Part shown: positions 21,193 to 39,685 of the stretch, in pieces
Numbering within the stretch: position 1 is the stretch's first letter
How the letters are laid out: every line of letters begins with the position of its first letter
Assembly: GCA_021804785.1 (NCBI GenBank)
Contig: JAJZGY010000012.1
Location: forward strand, 1 to 48,565
Direction: 5' to 3'
From: Pseudomonadota bacterium
Lineage (GTDB): Bacteria; Pseudomonadota; Alphaproteobacteria; Micropepsales; Micropepsaceae
DNA: 48,565 bases
Notes under the pieces: generated by a model
Told to the model about the DNA's origin: nothing
The model's database searches: none
The model's input: only the letters and a program-made list of their open reading frames with translations
Program-made: the position numbers and the translations under genes

Positions 21193-22671
21193 TCAGGCCG
21201 TCCTCGTCAGGAGCGGGCGCAGAGGAGCGAGCTGCTCTTCATAGTGCTGCGCGCGCCCCAAGGAGCTGCGGTAAAGCGGCTTGCGAACCTGCCAGACGCT
21301 GGCCGTGCGCACCACGTTTGCGGCGGCATGAAAGTCCATGCAGGCCTCGTCCCACGGTAGACCGCAATAAGCCAAGAGATCTTCAGTCGCGGTCCGTTGC
21401 GCGGTGACAAATTTGGCGTAATCAAAGCCATAGAGCTCGGAGCCGAAAAGCTCCTGCCAGTGCGCCATCAGACGCCGGTACTGCGTGTAATAGTGTACGA
21501 TATCAGCCAAATCATGGGCATAAGGTACCCGGTGATCCACATGCAGAAAAAAGATCGAAAGCGCGATATCGAGCGGATCTCTTTCGGTGTGGATGATCCG
21601 TGCTTCGGGAAACAACAGCTTGATCAGGCCGATGTGCAGAAAGTTCTCGGTCCGCTTGTCGCTGACCTGCCCGGCCTGTGGAAAGGCTGCAGCAAGACCG
21701 TCCTGATAGGCCCTGGCAAGCGTTCCCAAGCCAGCGCTGTCCAAGGCCTGAGGATAGTCGGGAAGCAAGCGGGCGATGAGATCGGGGAGCAATCCCAGCT
21801 CACCACCCATGGTAACAGCGGGATGACTGGCCAGTACCTGCTCACACAAAGTCGAGCCCGAACGAAACATACCACAGATGAAGATCGGCTGCGGTGACGC
21901 AGACGTCCCGATCTTCAGTTCCGAACGCAATTGGGCCAGGCGCGCAGGTGTAAAAAATGCAATCAGGGCTGCGATGCGCGCCTCCTGAGCGGCCCGATCA
22001 TAGCTGACGTCGAATCCGCCCTGGCGCAGGGCCTGACGGCTGGCGGCGTTGGCAGCTCGGGCGCAGGCAAAGGCCTCGCCATATTCGCCAACCGCATCCA
22101 GAAGTCGGGCGAGCGCGAAGCCAAGACTTGCCCGTTCCAGGGGATCGGCATTGGGCATGGCAAGAGCCCGGCGCAACCGATCGATTACCGGATCATTGAC
22201 GCCCCGAGGCTCATGCAGATTGGCGTAGCGGGCCAATGCCTCGAAAAACCAGGGTCGCAGCGAAAGCGCCCGTGTGTAGTAGCGCCGCGCCTGCTCACGG
22301 TCACCACGATCTTCGGCCAGATTGCCGAGGTTGATCAGCGCTGGAAGATATTCGGAATTGACCTGCAGAGCAGAAATGAGCTCCGCCTCCGCCAACTCGA
22401 AACGGCTCAGGCCATCGCTGAAAATGAGCGCACGATTGAGGAAAATCTGCTCCGGCGCCTCCGCGCCACGCGTCAGGGCCTCACCATAAGCGGCCAGCGC
22501 CGCCTCATGGCGCCCGGCATGGGCGCGCAGGCGTCCCAGATTGTACCAGCTGTTGGCAAGCTCGGGAGCAGCCTCAAGCAGGCGTTCATAGGCCGCAATA
22601 GCCTCATCGAGGGGGCCGGTGCGGCTCAGTTCCCGCGCCCGCACCAGCAGCTGTTCGACAGATTGGTTCAT
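21193..22671 (-). CDS. TPR-repeat sulfotransferase
   Basis: A 492-residue fusion. Residues 1 to about 200 are tetratricopeptide repeats (DEAIAAYERLLEAAPE, HEAALAAYGEAL, EQARRYYTRALSLRP). From about residue 262 there is a sulfotransferase domain. The 5'-phosphosulfate loop is ICGMFRSGSTLCEQVL and the 3'-phosphate motif is RIIHTERDPLDIALS, so it should use PAPS. The acceptor may be a protein, carbohydrate or lipid and is unknown; TPR arms in such proteins probably hold a protein partner. The ATG at 22671 begins the first helix; upstream frame to 22902 is low-complexity overlap with sppA. No PAPS synthesis genes are nearby. Confidence 0.87.
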   Translation of the reverse strand: MNQSVEQLLVRARELSRTGPLDEAIAAYERLLEAAPELANSWYNLGRLRAHAGRHEAALAAYGEALTRGAEAPEQIFLNRALIFSDGLSRFELAEAELISALQVNSEYLPALINLGNLAEDRGDREQARRYYTRALSLRPWFFEALARYANLHEPRGVNDPVIDRLRRALAMPNADPLERASLGFALARLLDAVGEYGEAFACARAANAASRQALRQGGFDVSYDRAAQEARIAALIAFFTPARLAQLRSELKIGTSASPQPIFICGMFRSGSTLCEQVLASHPAVTMGGELGLLPDLIARLLPDYPQALDSAGLGTLARAYQDGLAAAFPQAGQVSDKRTENFLHIGLIKLLFPEARIIHTERDPLDIALSIFFLHVDHRVPYAHDLADIVHYYTQYRRLMAHWQELFGSELYGFDYAKFVTAQRTATEDLLAYCGLPWDEACMDFHAAANVVRTASVWQVRKPLYRSSLGRAQHYEEQLAPLRPLLTRTA

Positions 22672-22777
22672 GACCAAGGCATAGCCCAAGGGGGAGGATC
22701 TTTGAAGGGTGGCGGCATCGCCGCCCCCACCCTCCATCGCGTCTGGTGCCGAGAGGCGCGCAGCAGCTTTTGATCCG

Positions 22778-24577
22778 TTACTGTGGTGCAAGGCTACTTG
22801 TAGGCAGTGGCAGATTGGCCGCCCGCATTTCGACCCCGCCCGCGGGGGCGATGCTGAGAGCCCCCACCGCAGCGCGCAGTAAGGGCGTCTGCGCCAGATC
22901 AACCAGCCCCTGCATGGCCTTCAGGCCGGTTTCGCCATCACCAAAGATCGAGCCCAGCTGATCAAAAAAGCCCTGACTGCGAGGGAAGCGCGCAAACACC
23001 ACACGCTGGTCAGCCGGAATGTGTGCGAGCTGCTTGGCTTCGGCCACTGCAGTCCAGAATCCACCCAGCGCATCGACGAGATCATGGGACTTGGCATCAA
23101 TGCCCGACCACACCCGGCCTTTGGCAATGGCGTCGACTTTGGCCAGAGGCATTTTGCGGCCTTCTGCCACTTTCTGCTTGAAGGCAAGATAGATGATATC
23201 CGCCTGCTTGTTCAGCGCGGCAAGTTGCGCCTTGCTGTAGGGGGTCAAAGAGGAATCGGCGAGTGCGTTCTTGCCCACTCCGATTTCGTCCGCGCCCACC
23301 CCAATGAGCGCCAGCGACTTGCCGAAACTGACCTTGCCCGTGAGCACGCCAATCGAGCCTGTGATAGTGCCAGGCTCCGCCACGATGCGGTTGGCCGAAC
23401 TCGAAATATAATAGCCGCCAGAGGCCGCAACGGCGCCCATGCTGACCACGACAGGTTTGCCCTTGGCCTGGGCAACACGCACCGCATGCAGGATCTGATC
23501 GGAGGCCAAAACCGAGCCGCCTGGCGAATCAATGCGCAGAATGATGGCCTTGATCGACTTCTCGTCGGCCGCAGCCAGGATGGCCTTGGAAAAGCTGTCT
23601 CCGGCAATCACCGAGGTTGCACTGAGAAGGCTGGGATGGGCGCTGCCATCGACGATATCGCCATCGCCTTCGATCAGGGCCACACGGCTGCCGCTGCCAA
23701 AGGAAGAGCCGGGCGCCGTAGCCACCGCATAACGGGCGAGTTTGACCGGCCTGCCCCCGCTACCGGCACGCTCAAGCGCCGCCTGAAGCGCGTCGCTGTC
23801 ATAGCCGATGCGATCGATCAGCCCCGCCTTCTTCACGTCTTGAGCAAAAGTCGGGCTCGCATCCATCACCGCGATCAGTTTGGCCCTGGAGATGCCACGG
23901 GCCTGCGCTGCAGCCCCAGTGGCACTGTCATACCAGCTCTGCAACAGCGCCGTGGTCTGCAAGCGATCTGCGGCGGTGTAATCCTTCTTCATGAACTCGT
24001 CGGCAGCGCTCTTGAACTGGGCGCGTTTGACCATCTGTGGAACGGCATCAATCTTGTCGAACAGACCGCGCAAAAAGATGGCGCCAGCGGAGGTGCCAGC
24101 CGGTTCGAACGGGCTTTGTGGCTGCATCCAGATCTGATTGGCGCTGGTGGCGAGAAGATAATCCCCGAGCCCCGTCGACAAGAAGCCCTGGGCGTCAGCG
24201 ATCACGAATTTTCCCTCCCGACGGAAGCGGGCAATGGCCGCAGACAATTCCTCGGCTTCTGGCACCGAAAGTCCACCACTGCCGAGCTTGAGGAACAGGC
24301 CTTTGACACGATGGTCGCGCCCCGCCCGATCCAGGGCCATGATGGCTTTCATGACCGTCAGCTGTGAAGGTGCAAACCAGGGTGTCTGCGGCCGAGAATC
24401 CGGCAGGTTGCCGCTCAGGTTCATGGTCAGCACCATGTTGCCGGGAAGTCCGTCCCCCTCGACCAGACCGGCGATCAACACTCCGGCGACGACGATGCCG
24501 ATGCCAAGCGCAAGCATCACAAGCCCATTCAATGTTCCAGTCACGATGTGACCGAGCCATTTCAAAAACGCGATCAT
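22778..24577 (-). CDS. sppA: Signal peptide peptidase SppA, 67 kDa type
   Basis: A 599-residue inner-membrane serine protease that digests cleaved signal peptides. An N-terminal transmembrane anchor (about residues 10-40) precedes two tandem SppA domains, as in the E. coli form. The catalytic dyad is K189 in the first repeat (RAQFKSAADEF) and S379 in the second (VVVSMGAVAASGG); both are present. The start at 24577 has GGAGGT just upstream (24588-24582 on the minus strand). A longer frame beginning at 24625 lacks such a site. The gene is divergent from the alpha/beta hydrolase. Confidence 0.94.
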   Translation of the reverse strand: MIAFLKWLGHIVTGTLNGLVMLALGIGIVVAGVLIAGLVEGDGLPGNMVLTMNLSGNLPDSRPQTPWFAPSQLTVMKAIMALDRAGRDHRVKGLFLKLGSGGLSVPEAEELSAAIARFRREGKFVIADAQGFLSTGLGDYLLATSANQIWMQPQSPFEPAGTSAGAIFLRGLFDKIDAVPQMVKRAQFKSAADEFMKKDYTAADRLQTTALLQSWYDSATGAAAQARGISRAKLIAVMDASPTFAQDVKKAGLIDRIGYDSDALQAALERAGSGGRPVKLARYAVATAPGSSFGSGSRVALIEGDGDIVDGSAHPSLLSATSVIAGDSFSKAILAAADEKSIKAIILRIDSPGGSVLASDQILHAVRVAQAKGKPVVVSMGAVAASGGYYISSSANRIVAEPGTITGSIGVLTGKVSFGKSLALIGVGADEIGVGKNALADSSLTPYSKAQLAALNKQADIIYLAFKQKVAEGRKMPLAKVDAIAKGRVWSGIDAKSHDLVDALGGFWTAVAEAKQLAHIPADQRVVFARFPRSQGFFDQLGSIFGDGETGLKAMQGLVDLAQTPLLRAAVGALSIAPAGGVEMRAANLPLPTSSLAPQ

Positions 24578-33305: not shown

Positions 33306-33683
33306 TTAATAACCCATGGCGCGCAGGTTGGCGGCCATCTGCCCGAACACCCCCCCGACAGCGCCAACCAGAACCGCGATGGTGGTTCCGGTCGCGATAA
33401 AACTCGCATAGAGGTCCCCAATGGCAGCGGAAAAGCCAATGCCAACAAAGCCGCAGACACCTCCGGCGATGGCACCTGCTGTCGCACTCGCGAACCAGCC
33501 ATGACCCGTCACTACGGCGTAAATGTAGGCAGAGGTCGCAGAGATCATCATGCCGCCGAAGAAAAAGAGGTGCTGCGCCAGCCACGGAATAAAATGTCCC
33601 GTGACGTACATGGCAAGCTGCAGCACAATGCCAACGATGGTGGCCCGGATCAGTGGCACAGGCTCAATCACTGCTACCTCCAT
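33306..33683 (-). CDS. Small integral membrane protein, unknown function
   Basis: About 125 residues from the ATG at 33683, with four hydrophobic helices rich in glycine and alanine (IRATIVGIVLQLAMYV, FFFGGMMISATSAYIYAVV, GAIAGGVCGFVGIGFSAAIG, ATGTTIAVLVGAVGGVFGQ). Repeated GxxxG-like packing motifs suggest a compact helical bundle. I do not recognise the family. It lies between mutL and the divergent Gld-type ABC operon. An earlier ATG at 33731 is possible but would start inside a stretch with no hydrophobic logic. Confidence 0.6.
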   Translation of the reverse strand: MEVAVIEPVPLIRATIVGIVLQLAMYVTGHFIPWLAQHLFFFGGMMISATSAYIYAVVTGHGWFASATAGAIAGGVCGFVGIGFSAAIGDLYASFIATGTTIAVLVGAVGGVFGQMAANLRAMGY

Positions 33684-33830
33684 CCCAAAGGTGCCAGCCT
33701 GGGCTATTGTGGCGCAGCCCAAGCCACCCATTGCCGTTGAGGTTCACACGCATCTGGCGGCCAAAGGCGCTACCTTGATGTGATGACTGAAGCGTAACCT
33801 TTGTTAGCTTGCGATGCGCGGTGTTTTTTT

Positions 33831-33853: not shown

Positions 33854-33905
33854 GTAGTCGCGCTTGGCGCCAGTGCCTCACGAACGGGCAAATCCTCGTG
33901 TGCAG

Positions 33906-34880
33906 ATGATCGAAGTCGAAGGATTGACAAAGCAGTTTGGCCCGCTTGCGGCCGTCGCCGGTATCGACCTGCGCGTCGGGCGTGGCGAGGTATTGGGATT
34001 TCTAGGGCCTAACGGCGCTGGCAAATCCACCACCATGAAGATGATCACGGGCTATCTGTCAGCAAGCTCCGGTCGGGTGCGGATTTGCGGCCAGGACATC
34101 GAGAGCCAGACCATCGCCGCACAGCGCCAGATCGGGTATCTGCCCGAGGGTGCACCAGCCTATGGCGACATGACCCCGCGCAGTTTCCTGAACTTCATCG
34201 CCGAGGTTCGTGGTTTTTATGGTGCCACCGCCAAGAGCCACATCGAGCGGGCCATTGCCAACACCGAACTTGATCCGGTGCTCGAGCAACCTATCGAGAC
34301 CCTGTCCAAGGGCTTCAAGCGTCGCGTTGGTCTGGCGCAGGCTATCTTGCATGATCCGCCAGTGCTGATCATGGATGAGCCAACTGACGGGCTTGATCCC
34401 AACCAGAAACACGCAGTGCGGCGGCTGATCCGCGACATGGCTCCGAAAAAGGCCATTATCGTCTCGACCCATCTTTTGGAAGAAGTTGAAGCCATCTGCA
34501 CCCGCGCCGTGATCATTGACCGCGGACGCATCGTTGCCGACGGGACACCGTACGAGCTTCTGACCCGCTCGCGCCATCACAATGCCGTCAGCCTGCTGTT
34601 GCCGACCGTGCAAGCCGAGCTTGCCTGGGCCCGCCTCAAATCGATGAACGATGTGGTTTCGGTCGAGCAGAGCGCGCGGCCCGACGGGCTGACGATGCTG
34701 ACCGCCTTTCCCCGGCAGGGCGCTCTGCTCATAGAAGATGTCAGCGCGCTGGTCATGGCGGAACACTGGGATGTACGGGAGCTTTATGCCGAACCAGGTC
34801 GGCTGGAAGATGTATTTCGAGCCGTCACCACCCATGATGCGGCGCGTGCGCGTGCCCAGGCAAGCGGGGCAAACCCATGA
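33906..34880 (+). CDS. ABC transporter ATP-binding protein, GldA-like
   Basis: A 324-residue cytoplasmic ATPase. Walker A is GPNGAGKST (about residues 37-45), the signature is the variant LSKGFKRRVGLAQA, Walker B is VLIMDEPTDGLD, and the H-loop is VSTHLLEE. The extra C-terminal domain of about 100 residues is as in GldA, which in Bacteroidetes is part of an ABC complex needed for gliding. Alphaproteobacteria carry the same gene order with no known role. The ATG at 33906 has no good ribosome site; GTG at 33900 or TTG at 33864 are alternatives. Its stop overlaps the permease start by four bases (ATGA). Confidence 0.92.
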   Translation: MIEVEGLTKQFGPLAAVAGIDLRVGRGEVLGFLGPNGAGKSTTMKMITGYLSASSGRVRICGQDIESQTIAAQRQIGYLPEGAPAYGDMTPRSFLNFIAEVRGFYGATAKSHIERAIANTELDPVLEQPIETLSKGFKRRVGLAQAILHDPPVLIMDEPTDGLDPNQKHAVRRLIRDMAPKKAIIVSTHLLEEVEAICTRAVIIDRGRIVADGTPYELLTRSRHHNAVSLLLPTVQAELAWARLKSMNDVVSVEQSARPDGLTMLTAFPRQGALLIEDVSALVMAEHWDVRELYAEPGRLEDVFRAVTTHDAARARAQASGANP

Positions 34881-35611
34881 GCGGATTGTGGCCGATCTTC
34901 AAGCGCGAATTTGTGGCCTATTTCGCAACGCCCCTGGCCTATGTGTTCATCGTGATCTTCCTGTTCGCCATGGGTGCTTTCACGTTCTACATCGGCAATT
35001 TCTATCAGAATGGCGTTGCCGATCTGTCCGTCTTCTTCGCCTATCATCCCTGGCTTTATCTCTTTCTCGTGCCGGCCATAGCAATGCGCCTGTGGTCCGA
35101 AGAACGCCGCAGCGGCACCATTGAACTGCTGCTCACACTGCCTATCCCGGTATGGGCGAGCGTGATCGGCAAATATCTGGCGGCTTGGGCGTTTACCGGC
35201 GTGGCACTCGTGCTTACCTTCCCCATCTGGCTCACGGTTAATTATCTCGGCAATCCGGACAATGGTGTAATCCTTGCCGGTTATGTCGGCAGCTTCCTGA
35301 TGGCCGGTGGCTATCTTGCAATCGGCGCGGCGATTTCAGCGGCCACCAGCAATCAGGTGATTGCCTTTGTGGTTTCGGTGGTGGTCTGCTTTCTGTTTAC
35401 GGTCTCTGGCGCGCCCCTCGTGCTCGACTTTGTCCGCGTCATCGCACCACTACCGATCGTGACAGCGATCTCATCATTCAGCTTCCTCACGCATTTCGGG
35501 GCTATTTCGACCGGCGTGATCGACCTTCGTGACATCATTTTCTTCGTCTCGCTGATCGCCCTGTTTCTGGCGATCAACATCGTATTGATCGACCTGAAGA
35601 AGGCGAGCTGA
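34877..35611 (+). CDS. ABC transporter permease, GldF-like
   Basis: A 244-residue six-helix ABC-2 permease. The N-terminal FKREFVAYFATPLAYVFIVIF and the EERRSGTIELLLTLPIPVWASVIGKY segment are hallmark regions of the GldF/NosY-like group. NQVIAFVVSVVVCFLF is a later helix. It pairs with the upstream ATPase, whose stop overlaps this ATG by four bases. The following GldG-like gene starts three bases after its stop. The complex may handle a lipid, peptide or envelope component; the substrate is unknown. Confidence 0.9.
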   Translation: MSGLWPIFKREFVAYFATPLAYVFIVIFLFAMGAFTFYIGNFYQNGVADLSVFFAYHPWLYLFLVPAIAMRLWSEERRSGTIELLLTLPIPVWASVIGKYLAAWAFTGVALVLTFPIWLTVNYLGNPDNGVILAGYVGSFLMAGGYLAIGAAISAATSNQVIAFVVSVVVCFLFTVSGAPLVLDFVRVIAPLPIVTAISSFSFLTHFGAISTGVIDLRDIIFFVSLIALFLAINIVLIDLKKAS

Positions 35612-35614
35612 CCC

Positions 35615-37504
35615 ATGACCAAGCCGCTGTCCCGGCGCGTCTATGCGATCACCGCCCTCATCCTGGCGGCAGTCATCTTTGTAGCCATCAACATTGCCGC
35701 TGATGCCAGCCTGACCACCGAGCAGATCGATCTCACACAAAACGGCCTCTATACGATCTCCAAGGGCACCAAAGAGATCCTGCGCAACCTGAAAGAACCT
35801 ATCACTCTCAAATTTTATTACTCCAAGAAGGCCGCCGCCGATTACGCGCAGATCAATGCCTATGCGGCGCGCGTGCGCGATCTGCTGCAGCGTTATGCTG
35901 CGCTGTCTAACGGCAAAGTCATTGTCGAGGAGCTGGATCCGGCGCCCTATACCAGAGCCGAGGATCAGGCCAACGCAGCCGGATTGACCGGCGCCCAGAC
36001 CGATGATGGCCATGTCGTCTATTTCGGCCTTGTGGGTACCAACACCATCGATGGTACTCAGACGATTCCCTTCTTCAGCCTGAAGCGGGAGCCGTTTCTC
36101 GAATATGACATCACCTCGCTGATCTACCGGCTGTCGCAGCCGCAAAAACCGGTCATCGGGGTGTTGTCGTCGCTGCCCCTCAATGTCGGGGCTGGCGGCA
36201 TGATGGCCGCCCTGCAGGGACAGGCGCAACCTTATGTGGCCTGGGAGCAGCTGGCACAGAATTACAAGACGCGGATGATACCTGCCGACTTCAAGACCCT
36301 TCCCAAGGGCATCCGCGTACTGATGATTGTCCAGCCCAACAAACTGAACGCAATACAACGTTATGCTATTGACCAGTTCGTGCTGCGAGGCGGACATGCA
36401 CTGGTCTTTGTCGATCCGCGTTCAGATCTGGCGCTGGCCTCCGGTGATGGTGGTCAGCCGGTCGCCCCAGCCTCCTCGAACCTGCCGCAGCTGTTCAAAG
36501 CCTGGGGCATCGGGTTCAACCCCAACAAGGTGGTTCTGGACGGCCGTCTGGCCCAGCAGGTGGAAGTGCAGGACAATCCCCACGATCCCATCGTGCTCTA
36601 TCCCACCTGGCTCAGGATCGGCAGAGCGCAGATGAACCGCAAGGACCAGGTTACGGCCAATCTGTCCGATCTCAACCTGGCGACGGTCGGCGCGCTCTAC
36701 CCGGTCAAGGGGGCCACCACCCGTTTCATCCCACTGATCAGCTCCTCGGACGACGCCAGCCTGATCTCGACCACTCGCCTGCAACTGACCGCGCCGCAGG
36801 ATCTGCTCAACGCCATCCATCCGGTGGGCAAACCCTTTGTAATCGCGGCCCGCATTTCTGGCCCCGCCCATACCGCCTTTCCCAATGGGCCACCGACGGG
36901 TGTTCCCGCCAAGGGCCAGATCAAGTCCGCCAAGAGCGTCAATCTGATCGTCGTCGCCGATACCGATATCTTCGACGACCGCTTCTGGGTACGCCTGGAT
37001 CAGAGCTATGGCGGAAAAACCATTGCCGAGCCTTTCGCCGACAATGGCGCCTTCATCCTCAATGCGGTGGAGAATCTCACCGGATCGAATGCTCTGATCT
37101 CGCTGCGTACCCGCGCTGTGTCCACCCGTCCGTTTACAGTCGTCAAGGAATTGCAGGCCGAAGCTCAGGCAGAATTCCAGCAACAGGCGAATGATCTGCA
37201 GCAAAAATTGTCCGATACCGAGCACAAGCTGAGAACCCTCGAAAGCGGAGGCACCGCTGCTGCTGGCGGAGCCGTGCAGCTTTCGGCCAGGCAACAGCGC
37301 CAGATCGAGAACTTCAAACGTGAGCTGATCGATACCCGCCTTCAGCTGCGCAAAGTGCAGTTGAACCTGCGTAAGAGTGTCGATCAGCTGGGCAGCATCC
37401 TTGCGTTCCTCAATATCGCCTTCGTGCCTATTCTGGTGGCGCTGTTTGCGCTCGCTCTGGCCTGGTTGCGGCGGCGACGCCGCGCCCGCGCCGTGAACCT
37501 GTGA
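35615..37504 (+). CDS. GldG-like ABC transporter auxiliary protein (PF09822 type)
   Basis: A 629-residue membrane-anchored protein. One transmembrane helix near the N terminus (about residues 9-30) and one near the C terminus (about 598-620) flank a large extracytoplasmic domain. The region TISKGTKEILRNLKEPITLKFYYSK and the GHALVFVDPRSD segment are typical of the ABC-type transport auxiliary family. A coiled coil (about 515-590, rich in Q, E and L) precedes the second helix, and a basic RRRRRARA tail follows. It is the third gene of the operon and its stop overlaps an in-frame GTG of the next gene (GTGA). Confidence 0.88.
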   Translation: MTKPLSRRVYAITALILAAVIFVAINIAADASLTTEQIDLTQNGLYTISKGTKEILRNLKEPITLKFYYSKKAAADYAQINAYAARVRDLLQRYAALSNGKVIVEELDPAPYTRAEDQANAAGLTGAQTDDGHVVYFGLVGTNTIDGTQTIPFFSLKREPFLEYDITSLIYRLSQPQKPVIGVLSSLPLNVGAGGMMAALQGQAQPYVAWEQLAQNYKTRMIPADFKTLPKGIRVLMIVQPNKLNAIQRYAIDQFVLRGGHALVFVDPRSDLALASGDGGQPVAPASSNLPQLFKAWGIGFNPNKVVLDGRLAQQVEVQDNPHDPIVLYPTWLRIGRAQMNRKDQVTANLSDLNLATVGALYPVKGATTRFIPLISSSDDASLISTTRLQLTAPQDLLNAIHPVGKPFVIAARISGPAHTAFPNGPPTGVPAKGQIKSAKSVNLIVVADTDIFDDRFWVRLDQSYGGKTIAEPFADNGAFILNAVENLTGSNALISLRTRAVSTRPFTVVKELQAEAQAEFQQQANDLQQKLSDTEHKLRTLESGGTAAAGGAVQLSARQQRQIENFKRELIDTRLQLRKVQLNLRKSVDQLGSILAFLNIAFVPILVALFALALAWLRRRRRARAVNL

Positions 37505-37515
37505 CGGAGGCCGCA

Positions 37516-38592
37516 ATGTCCCTGGCAGCAGCGATCCTTCACGACCGGCGACGGCGCAATCTTCTGGTGCTGGCGATCGTGGCCGCGCTCAGCTCGATTC
37601 TTGCGGTGCTGGCACTTGACCATCAGGCCGCCTTGATGGCGCCAAAATACAAGCCGCATACATTTTTTCCCGGACTTGCCGACAGGGACCGGCACATCGC
37701 CAGCATCCGCATTACCTCAAAGGAATACGGGACTGTGGCGATCGATTTCGTTCCTGATCGCGGCTGGATCCTACCGGCTGAGCATGGTTTTCCTGCCAAT
37801 TATGATCTTGTCCGCAAGACCATTTATGGCATGGCCGGTCTTGAGGCGTTGGCCCCGGAAACCGCGCGACCCGAATGGCTGAAATATCTCGATCTCGACG
37901 CTCCGCCGAAGGGGCACGGCGTAAAAGTCACGCTTTACGATGACAAGGGACACGTCATCGCAGCTTTGATCGCGGGAAAGACCAAGACGCTGGGCGAGCT
38001 GGGACAGCTCGGCCTGTTCGTTCGCACCCCGACGAGCAACCAGAGCTGGCTCGCCCGCAGCGTATTTCAGCCAGATGCCAATCCTGCCGACTGGATGAAC
38101 AAGGACGTGCTCGATCTGGCGCGTTCAGAAATCAAATCGGTCACCGTCAAGCCCAATCATGGTCCGTCCTATACGGTGGCACGGACAGAACCCTCAGACC
38201 CGAATTTCAGCCTGAGCGGACTGCCGAAAGGCCGCACCCTCGCCTATCCCACCGCGCCCAATGGCCCGGCCTTTGGGCTGGTAGACTTTTCCTTCGACCA
38301 AGCGGTCCCGATTCAAACCGTCGATTTCAGCCACGCCACCCAGACCGAAACCACCACCTTTGACGGCCTCACTATAAACGCCCGCATTGCCGCGCAGGAC
38401 GGCAGCAGCTGGGTGGCGCTCGCCGCGCAGGCCAAGCCCGCCAACAAGATCGCCACGCTCAAAGCTCGCAAAATCAATAAGATCGCCGGCGCCTGGGCCT
38501 TTGAAATTCCCGCCTACAAGGCGGCCCAGCTGACCACCCCCTTGGACAATCTGCTCAAAGCCCACACGGCGCCGGCCACACACGGAAGGTGA
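37516..38592 (+). CDS. DUF4340 domain membrane-anchored protein
   Basis: A 358-residue protein with one N-terminal transmembrane helix (RRRNLLVLAIVAALSSILAVLAL) and an extracytoplasmic remainder. The repeated two-strand units (SIRITSKEYGTVAIDFV, SVTVKPNHGPSYTVARTE, GLVDFSFDQAVPIQTVDF) fit DUF4340. That domain is often found next to GldG-type proteins. The ATG at 37516 was chosen because GGAGG lies five bases upstream; a GTG at 37501 overlapping the previous stop is the alternative. As the fourth gene of a tightly packed operon it probably belongs to the same envelope complex. Function unknown. Confidence 0.85.
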   Translation: MSLAAAILHDRRRRNLLVLAIVAALSSILAVLALDHQAALMAPKYKPHTFFPGLADRDRHIASIRITSKEYGTVAIDFVPDRGWILPAEHGFPANYDLVRKTIYGMAGLEALAPETARPEWLKYLDLDAPPKGHGVKVTLYDDKGHVIAALIAGKTKTLGELGQLGLFVRTPTSNQSWLARSVFQPDANPADWMNKDVLDLARSEIKSVTVKPNHGPSYTVARTEPSDPNFSLSGLPKGRTLAYPTAPNGPAFGLVDFSFDQAVPIQTVDFSHATQTETTTFDGLTINARIAAQDGSSWVALAAQAKPANKIATLKARKINKIAGAWAFEIPAYKAAQLTTPLDNLLKAHTAPATHGR

Positions 38593-38644: not shown

Positions 38645-39685
38645 ATGAGCAGCGACGAGGCGCCTTTACGCAACCTTTGGTACATGGCGGGTTTTGGCCG
38701 GAAGTTGGCTCGCGGTAGCCTCTGGCACAAACTTCTCCTGGGCGAGCCGGTGTTGATCGGCCGCACCCACGCCGGAACGCTCTTCGCCATGCGTGACATC
38801 TGTCCCCATCGCGGTGTGCCGTTGTCCGCTGGCCGGGCCACGTCCAACGGCGTTCAATGCCCTTATCATGGCTGGCAGTTCGGCACCGATGGCGTGTGTA
38901 CCCACATCCCCTCGCTCACCGACGCCCAGGACTTAGACCCCAGCCGGATCAAGGTCCGAACCTTTCCGGTGTGCGAGCAGGACGGACTGATCTGGATTTA
39001 CATGGCCGCAGAAGGCCATGAGACAATGGCGCCGACCCAGTTGCCGCCCAAAGTGCCGCTCGCCAACGCCCGCCCGCGCTGGTTTGAAAGCCAGACCTTC
39101 CAATGCCCCATCGACCATGCCGTCATCGGCCTGATGGACCCGGCCCATGCCCCCTTCGTTCACGGCCGCTGGTGGTGGCGGGTCAGGCCAAGACTGAAGG
39201 AAAAGGCCTATGGCCCGCTGCCCAATGGCTTCGTTATGAAACGCCACGCCCCCAGCAAGCCCGCCTATCGTCTGCTGGGCGCAGAGGTGTCCACCGAGAT
39301 CACCTTCGAACTGCCGTCGACCCGCTTTGAGATCGTGAAGGGACACCTGCTGGGGCGCCCGCTCGACGTGGTCGGATTGACCGTGTGCACGCCCATTGAT
39401 GCGCACAGCACGCAGGTCACCCAGATCCAGTACTGGCCGGCATGGCTAGGCTTCATCAAGCCGTTCTTCATGGCCATCGGGCCGACCTTTCTTGGCGACG
39501 ACCGCCGGATGGTGGAACTGCAGAAGGAAGGGCTGAAGTTCAATCCTCGGCTGATGCTGATCCAGGACGCCGACCAGCCTGCCATCTGGTATCACCGCAT
39601 CAAAAAATCCTGGAGCGAACACGTCGCGACCGGTGAGCCGTTCGTCAATCCCGTGGCGGAGCGCACCTTGCGCTGGCGCAGCTAG
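38645..39685 (+). CDS. Rieske non-heme iron oxygenase, alpha-subunit type
   Basis: A 346-residue oxygenase. The Rieske [2Fe-2S] ligands are C53 and H55 (CPHRG) and C72 and H75 (CPYHGW). The mononuclear iron site is D165-P-A-H168-APFV-H173, matching the usual DxxHx4H. The single-subunit length is that of ring- or side-chain-hydroxylating oxygenases that use separate reductase and ferredoxin, neither of which is nearby. The substrate is unknown. It lies 52 bases after the DUF4340 gene on the same strand and may be read from the same operon, but functional linkage is not implied. Confidence 0.9.
   Translation: MSSDEAPLRNLWYMAGFGRKLARGSLWHKLLLGEPVLIGRTHAGTLFAMRDICPHRGVPLSAGRATSNGVQCPYHGWQFGTDGVCTHIPSLTDAQDLDPSRIKVRTFPVCEQDGLIWIYMAAEGHETMAPTQLPPKVPLANARPRWFESQTFQCPIDHAVIGLMDPAHAPFVHGRWWWRVRPRLKEKAYGPLPNGFVMKRHAPSKPAYRLLGAEVSTEITFELPSTRFEIVKGHLLGRPLDVVGLTVCTPIDAHSTQVTQIQYWPAWLGFIKPFFMAIGPTFLGDDRRMVELQKEGLKFNPRLMLIQDADQPAIWYHRIKKSWSEHVATGEPFVNPVAERTLRWRS

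Follow-up and report, generated by a model that had tools for sequence, protein, structure and literature searches.

A common Gld-like ABC-2 quartet with a DUF4340 subunit: a putative envelope machine examined in a Micropepsaceae genome

What does an alphaproteobacterium do with an ATP-binding cassette (ABC) operon that resembles the gliding genes gldA, gldF and gldG, and that continues into a gene for a DUF4340 protein? The question is raised by contig JAJZGY010000012.1 of assembly GCA_021804785.1 (Micropepsaceae), of which 48,565 nucleotides were analysed, referred to here as the window. Four genes on the + strand form the quartet under study: a GldA-like ABC ATPase of the ABC-2 exporter class (33906–34880, 324 aa), a GldF-like ABC-2 permease (34877–35611, 244 aa), a GldG-like auxiliary subunit with a hydrophobic anchor at either end (35615–37504, 629 aa) and a DUF4340 subunit with one anchor at the N terminus and a body predicted to be periplasmic (37501–38592, 363 aa). 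The coordinates, strand and gene identities given in a preliminary description of this DNA agree with the open reading frames and Pfam gathering scores, and its three junctions are present in the sequence: a 4-base ATGA overlap between ATPase and permease, a 3-base gap between permease and GldG, and a 4-base GTGA overlap between GldG and DUF4340. The ATPase frame is open upstream to a TTG at 33864, its ATG being at 33906, and the DUF4340 start candidates are the GTG at 37501 and an ATG five codons downstream. Judged from sequence, the four genes most likely encode a single compact membrane machine, powered by ATP, that relatives retain or lose en bloc.

The arrangement lies far beyond chance, because 69 of 80 named loci label all four genes and because adjacency holds in a sample drawn without regard to gene order. 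The latter comprised 200 genomes of the phylum, searched for PF09822, the family of the GldG-like protein, and for DUF4340 at E ≤ 0.001. DUF4340 was found in 76 genomes and PF09822 in 86; every genome with DUF4340 also has PF09822, and ten have PF09822 only. Of the 80 DUF4340 places, 76 are no more than 2 kb from PF09822; the remaining four are on contigs that lack PF09822 but belong to genomes with PF09822 on another contig. Among 41 relatives, including the source genome itself (171 contigs, 96.29% complete, a single PF09822 match), 23 carry DUF4340, with PF09822 adjoining in 23/23. Scattered homologues, which the preliminary description had set beforehand as evidence against a unit, were thus not encountered in either set.

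The named loci are the best 80 of more than 590 permease matches, a set biased to close relatives and mostly titled Alpha- or Gammaproteobacteria; a non-pathogenic carrier among them is Tepidicaulis marinus (L073). Permease and GldG are labelled in all 80, the ATPase in 79 and DUF4340 in 70; nine of the ten loci without a DUF4340 label have at most 108 bases of contig after the GldG frame, and the other (L098) has 688. Junctions of at most 30 bases were found at 70/79 loci for ATPase–permease, 70/74 for permease–GldG and 63/69 for GldG–DUF4340, the latter two measured to whichever start codon lay closest to the upstream stop, a choice that favours short gaps. Seventeen of the 76 adjacent PF09822 frames reach at least 850 aa. 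At six of 12 inspected loci, picked partly for long frames, permease and GldG are fused in one frame; four of the fusions adjoin a DUF4340 match and two do not. Gene order, fusion and block-wise presence support the view that the four proteins would act together. Mirror-tree correlations between the subunits (r 0.53 to 0.81, 65/80 loci) weigh little, since they are expected for genes inherited together and the permutations take no account of phylogeny. The earlier claim of a single, closely packed set of membrane and extracytoplasmic proteins is supported.

Beyond the quartet, Bax1-I, DUF2794, an FtsX-type permease, DUF1223, aconitase, HtpG, CarB and GreA are found nearby in parts of the tree, which we read as inherited gene order. 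No partner gene recurs across lineages, according to similarity counts and to Pfam searches of ten sampled neighbours and ten window genes. In two Nitrospirota loci (L107, L121) the gene next upstream of the quartet encodes BatD, with a von Willebrand factor A (vWA) gene just past it. This context recalls the vWA and AAA+ setting of archaeal GldG-like proteins (arCOG01314, DUF4350), for which a secretion or remodelling complex is predicted; unlike for the quartet, no ABC-2 pair is described for the archaeal cluster in the relevant passages (PMC5898192).

The core indicates what kind of machine this may be. The ATPase scores 100.7 bits against PF00005 (ABC_tran), above the Pfam gathering score, and its motifs are intact (Walker A GPNGAGKS, LSKG, Walker B LIMDEP and STH). 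The permease passes PF12698 (ABC2_membrane_3) narrowly, with 32.4 bits against a gathering score of 31.6, and its hydropathy profile displays seven peaks, two of them overlapping. An intact-motif ABC ATPase and an ABC-2 permease place the pair in the ABC-2 exporter class, and a machine with an ABC-2 core and anchored extracytoplasmic subunits is well supported. The formation of a complex is presumed.

Comparison with solved structures brings in the main rival, mechanotransmission, in which nothing is transported and the ABC core spends ATP on moving a periplasmic arm, whose task is to remodel or mature a partner in the periplasm. NosDFY and CcmAB are held to act in this manner; NosF is among the solved relatives of the ATPase, CcmB (E 4.5e-05) is the sole PDB match of the permease profile at E ≤ 0.1, and both the two large anchored extracytoplasmic subunits and the lack of a recurring substrate gene nearby would suit such a device. 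Conversely, the ABC-2 class to which NosF and CcmB belong is wide, and in comparisons with the ATPase the ABCA lipid transporters, its nearest solved relatives in the PDB, outscore NosF and LptB. NosDFY and CcmABCD also resemble the quartet in their ABC-2 class ATPase and permease, but differ in their periplasmic subunits and have established maturation tasks. On balance we consider mechanotransmission possible, albeit unlikely. A general efflux pump like DrrAB or NodIJ, fitted with accessory domains, appears improbable: the ATPase does match NCBIfam DrrA and NodI (206.7 and 164.6 bits), but these scores fall under the cut-offs of 312.45 and 521 as well as under its GldA score, and we know of no such pump with GIFT and DUF4340 subunits.

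The GldG-like subunit bears on a possible substrate. It matches PF09822 (ABC_transp_aux, 213.5 bits) and PF23357 (DUF7088, 84.0 bits), both above the gathering score. Hydropathy places its anchors at residues 11–29 and 595–613, and a single anchor at residues 21–39 of the DUF4340 protein, in line with the earlier account of two large extracytoplasmic proteins that have single or double anchors. The predicted GldG model (predicted local distance difference test, pLDDT, 88.0; predicted template-modelling score, pTM, 0.75) comprises a thioredoxin-like domain at residues 45–177 (DUF7088 region, 35747–36145), a GIFT domain at residues 178–494 (36146–37096, from the model and structural matches) and, in residues 506–629 (37130–37501), two long helices, 506–545 and 558–628, all encoded on the + strand. 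The second helix continues into the C-terminal anchor; model confidence is lower across residues 506–629 (blocks of 56–91). The thioredoxin-like domain lacks cysteine, as do the whole GldG and DUF4340 proteins.

In comparisons based on the predicted model, the thioredoxin-like domain resembles the N-terminal domain of AhpF (Z 10.3, 110 aligned residues, root mean square deviation (rmsd) 2.7). The GIFT domain resembles OST48/DDOST (Z 20.1, 228 aligned, rmsd 3.1) and the IFT52 N-domain (Z 18.3, 214 aligned, rmsd 2.9), followed by ThuA-like and glutamine-amidotransferase-like proteins (Z 10 to 14), and Foldseek matched the GIFT region to a chain of oligosaccharyltransferase (OST) with E 3.6e-09. 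PF09822 and DUF7088 matches together with a GIFT fold in the predicted model assign the protein to the GIFT family. OST48/Wbp1 and IFT52 share the fold of residues 178–494, but are parts of eukaryotic complexes without an ABC core, and PDB sequence searches with GldG or the GIFT region did not connect them to it, returning weak, chance-like matches only (e.g. myoglobin). The link between GldG, IFT52 and Wbp1 is already published, with Beatson and Ponting 2004 cited in a review, passages of which also mention sugar binding as proposed for GIFT domains in general (PMC7226087). As a side observation, five genus members (L025, L026, L027, L028, L029) have weak, sub-cut-off PF09822 matches in other long frames of 530–757 aa, possibly another protein of related fold.

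The fourth subunit scores 36.1 bits against PF14238 (DUF4340; gathering score 25). Its predicted model is confident (pLDDT 95.5, pTM 0.83) and gave no Foldseek match in the PDB at E ≤ 0.001 (best E 0.011); the best VIA match to the PDB has Z 4.8 over 103 residues. The best PDB sequence match, a PsbY chain (E 0.006 over 41 residues), is taken as chance. As a check for an internal repeat, one-against-one comparison of the two halves of the protein with hhalign gave a probability of just 14 over 26 columns (E 0.002). A passage of PMC12283558 terms the DUF4340 domain of a Verrucomicrobium spinosum gene essential. Three DUF4340 matches, all of family f37 (G135:C13, G191:C24 and G099:C18), have one internal stop each, which may represent frame changes, split genes or decay.

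Combined, these parts suggest the following sequence of events. The ATPase would drive the permease; GldG, tied or in some species fused to the permease and anchored at both ends, would present its thioredoxin-like and GIFT domains in the periplasm beside the helical hairpin, and DUF4340 would be the fourth, periplasmic and singly anchored subunit. ATP binding and hydrolysis would set the periplasmic parts in motion; a glycan or lipid-linked glycan leaving the inner membrane would be taken up or released by the GIFT head. We infer assembly, stoichiometry, periplasmic location, transport direction and glycan substrate. For the last, the GIFT fold is the sole basis, as no recurring enzyme was seen beside the quartet. 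That the quartet is an inner-membrane ABC-2 complex whose GIFT head handles a glycan or lipid-linked glycan is a proposition on which we see the scales evenly poised.

Several observations weigh against this proposition or against the strict unity of the block. No glycosyltransferase or other enzyme was found to recur next to the quartet (similarity counts, and Pfam on some neighbours); the glycan idea thus draws on the GIFT-type fold, which is common to many unrelated proteins, and the role of OST48/Wbp1 within OST is itself termed still unclear in the review passages (PMC7226087). Moreover, 20 of the 96 PF09822 places in the 200 genomes have no DUF4340 within 2 kb, and two loci (L142, L144) carry the trio without a DUF4340 profile match, from which it follows that the DUF4340 subunit is not universal. 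Finally, some genus members live without the quartet.

The resemblance to gliding proteins can be stated more exactly. The best NCBIfam matches of the trio are GldA, GldF and GldG, all under the curated cut-offs: 276.8 bits against 402.6 for the ATPase (TIGR03522), 181.3 against 288.5 for the permease (TIGR03518) and 105.1 against 389.85 for the GldG-like protein (TIGR03521). With all three equivalog cut-offs missed, "Gld-type", the label used in the preliminary description, denotes resemblance and not membership; by these scores the quartet is Gld-like, not Gld. Nor is its presence outside gliders odd, because most of the loci retained are alpha- or gammaproteobacterial and P. aeruginosa has the quartet. 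GldA, GldF and GldG of Flavobacterium constitute the same set of ATPase, ABC-2 permease and GIFT subunit. The quartet differs in that its operon includes the ATPase gene and continues after GldG with a DUF4340 gene; we take gldA of Flavobacterium to be separate from gldF and gldG, with no DUF4340 gene alongside. To our knowledge, the substrate of GldAFG has not been established. In Flavobacterium, as in the quartet, gldG lies downstream of gldF, and works cited in the same paper have linked GldAFG to gliding since the early 2000s (PMC5682007).

A role of the quartet in gliding or type IX secretion, analogous to Flavobacterium GldAFG, is very improbable. The top NCBIfam matches would favour it, and loss of gldG in F. 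psychrophilum lowers GldJ, GldK and GldN as well as secretion (PMC5682007). Yet the trio stays under every Gld cut-off, most type IX secretion proteins have homologues described from Bacteroidetes only according to passages of the same paper, and models of GldL and SprA found no match in the source genome, although the control genomes were equally silent.

Within the genus, gain and loss of the block can be followed. PF09822 is above cut-off in 19 of 25 genomes, the G008 copy being cut by a contig end. Of the six genomes that lack it (completeness 82 to 100%), five were looked at (L165–L169), G017 being the sixth. At these empty sites, genes for Bax1-I, DUF2794, a small membrane protein and a Rieske protein are consecutive, with no quartet between them, and CarB comes next after the Rieske gene where the contig extends (L165–L168). 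Throughout these five genomes neither PF09822 above cut-off nor DUF4340 was detected, the ATPase and permease being sought at the site only. In the CarB tree, the four empty-site genomes whose CarB could be used group as one clade (99/98), with G006 as sister (87/91, not starred); in G006 the same site is empty and the quartet is on another contig. The copies in G006 and G008 fall within the genus in the tree of ATPase, permease and GldG. Relocation of the block, followed by its complete loss in one clade, is the most economical reading; alternatively, the block may have been lost and then regained from a close relative. Its presence at this site is probably ancestral, because in two class-level loci (L041, L048) the quartet also has these Bax1-I and DUF2794 genes nearby. 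The small membrane protein, without a Pfam match, is encoded at the left edge of the quartet (33306–33731, − strand), and also occurs at the empty sites with low identity.

At the right edge, a Rieske oxygenase with both iron-binding motifs follows DUF4340 (38645–39685, + strand), with dicamba demethylase among its best solved relatives. That the quartet exports the product of this enzyme as part of a five-gene operon is scarcely credible. The gene does come directly after DUF4340 in 13 of 18 genus quartets (truncated G008 excluded), in some with overlapping frames. Against this, it is present in 15/19 PF09822-bearing and 5/6 PF09822-lacking genus members, remains at the site once the block is gone, and follows none of five class-level quartets. 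In many genus members it is kept beside carB with or without the quartet. As a fifth subunit or substrate clue it was consequently ruled out; the Rieske gene is part of the site, not of the machine.

Outside the class, P. aeruginosa CP109682.1 (L164) carries all four genes in matching order. Their annotations are ATP-binding protein, permease subunit, GldG family protein and DUF4340 protein, and Pfam agrees for all four. Identity to the window is 48% for the ATPase, 52% for the permease, 37% for GldG and 23% for the much diverged DUF4340 (over 155 residues); a mandelate racemase family gene, the exonuclease VII small subunit, a polyprenyl synthetase and dxs follow. The PAO1 quartet is presumably PA4037–PA4040, with PA4037, PA4038 and PA4039 as the first three genes. 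Its DUF4340 gene is PA4040, adjoining the mandelate racemase PA4041 (PMC8088628), and passages on evolved isolates list single substitutions in PA4039 and PA4037 (PMC4918941, PMC7078477). The open-licence PubMed Central literature yielded no functional study of the quartet, that of P. aeruginosa included, nor the characterised transporter with the same four subunits that would have contradicted the preliminary description. CP109682.1 is recorded as a plasmid of 424,881 bases and carries dxs and other chromosome-expected genes besides the quartet; it is either a chromosome segment or a secondary replicon. A tblastn search with GldG against 72,556 plasmid records gave one match.

Two further observations may be added. 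A promoter scan found none, and terminator-like sites numbered 9 against 5.2 expected. At 21193–22902 (− strand), the window encodes a tetratricopeptide repeat protein with a sulfotransferase domain.

In summary, the core family and the GIFT domain were known already, and what is new is the partnership with DUF4340 and its distribution. The quartet emerges as a real and common envelope module, unstudied in the open-licence literature, with the Gld-like core and its fourth subunit common in Pseudomonadota (DUF4340 in 76 of the 200 sampled genomes); no DUF4340 match was found in 14 control genomes, which may explain the scarcity of study. More speculatively, and with considerable doubt, it may be a widespread diderm envelope machine whose GIFT head hands a lipid-linked glycan from the ABC-2 core to DUF4340, with GldAFG of Bacteroidota as a specialised offshoot. 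If so, a head folded like the OST48 arm in protein N-glycosylation would work with a subunit whose fold would be absent from the PDB. The genus supplies close relatives with and without the block, and carriers such as P. aeruginosa could reveal the function of GIFT-type ABC machines.

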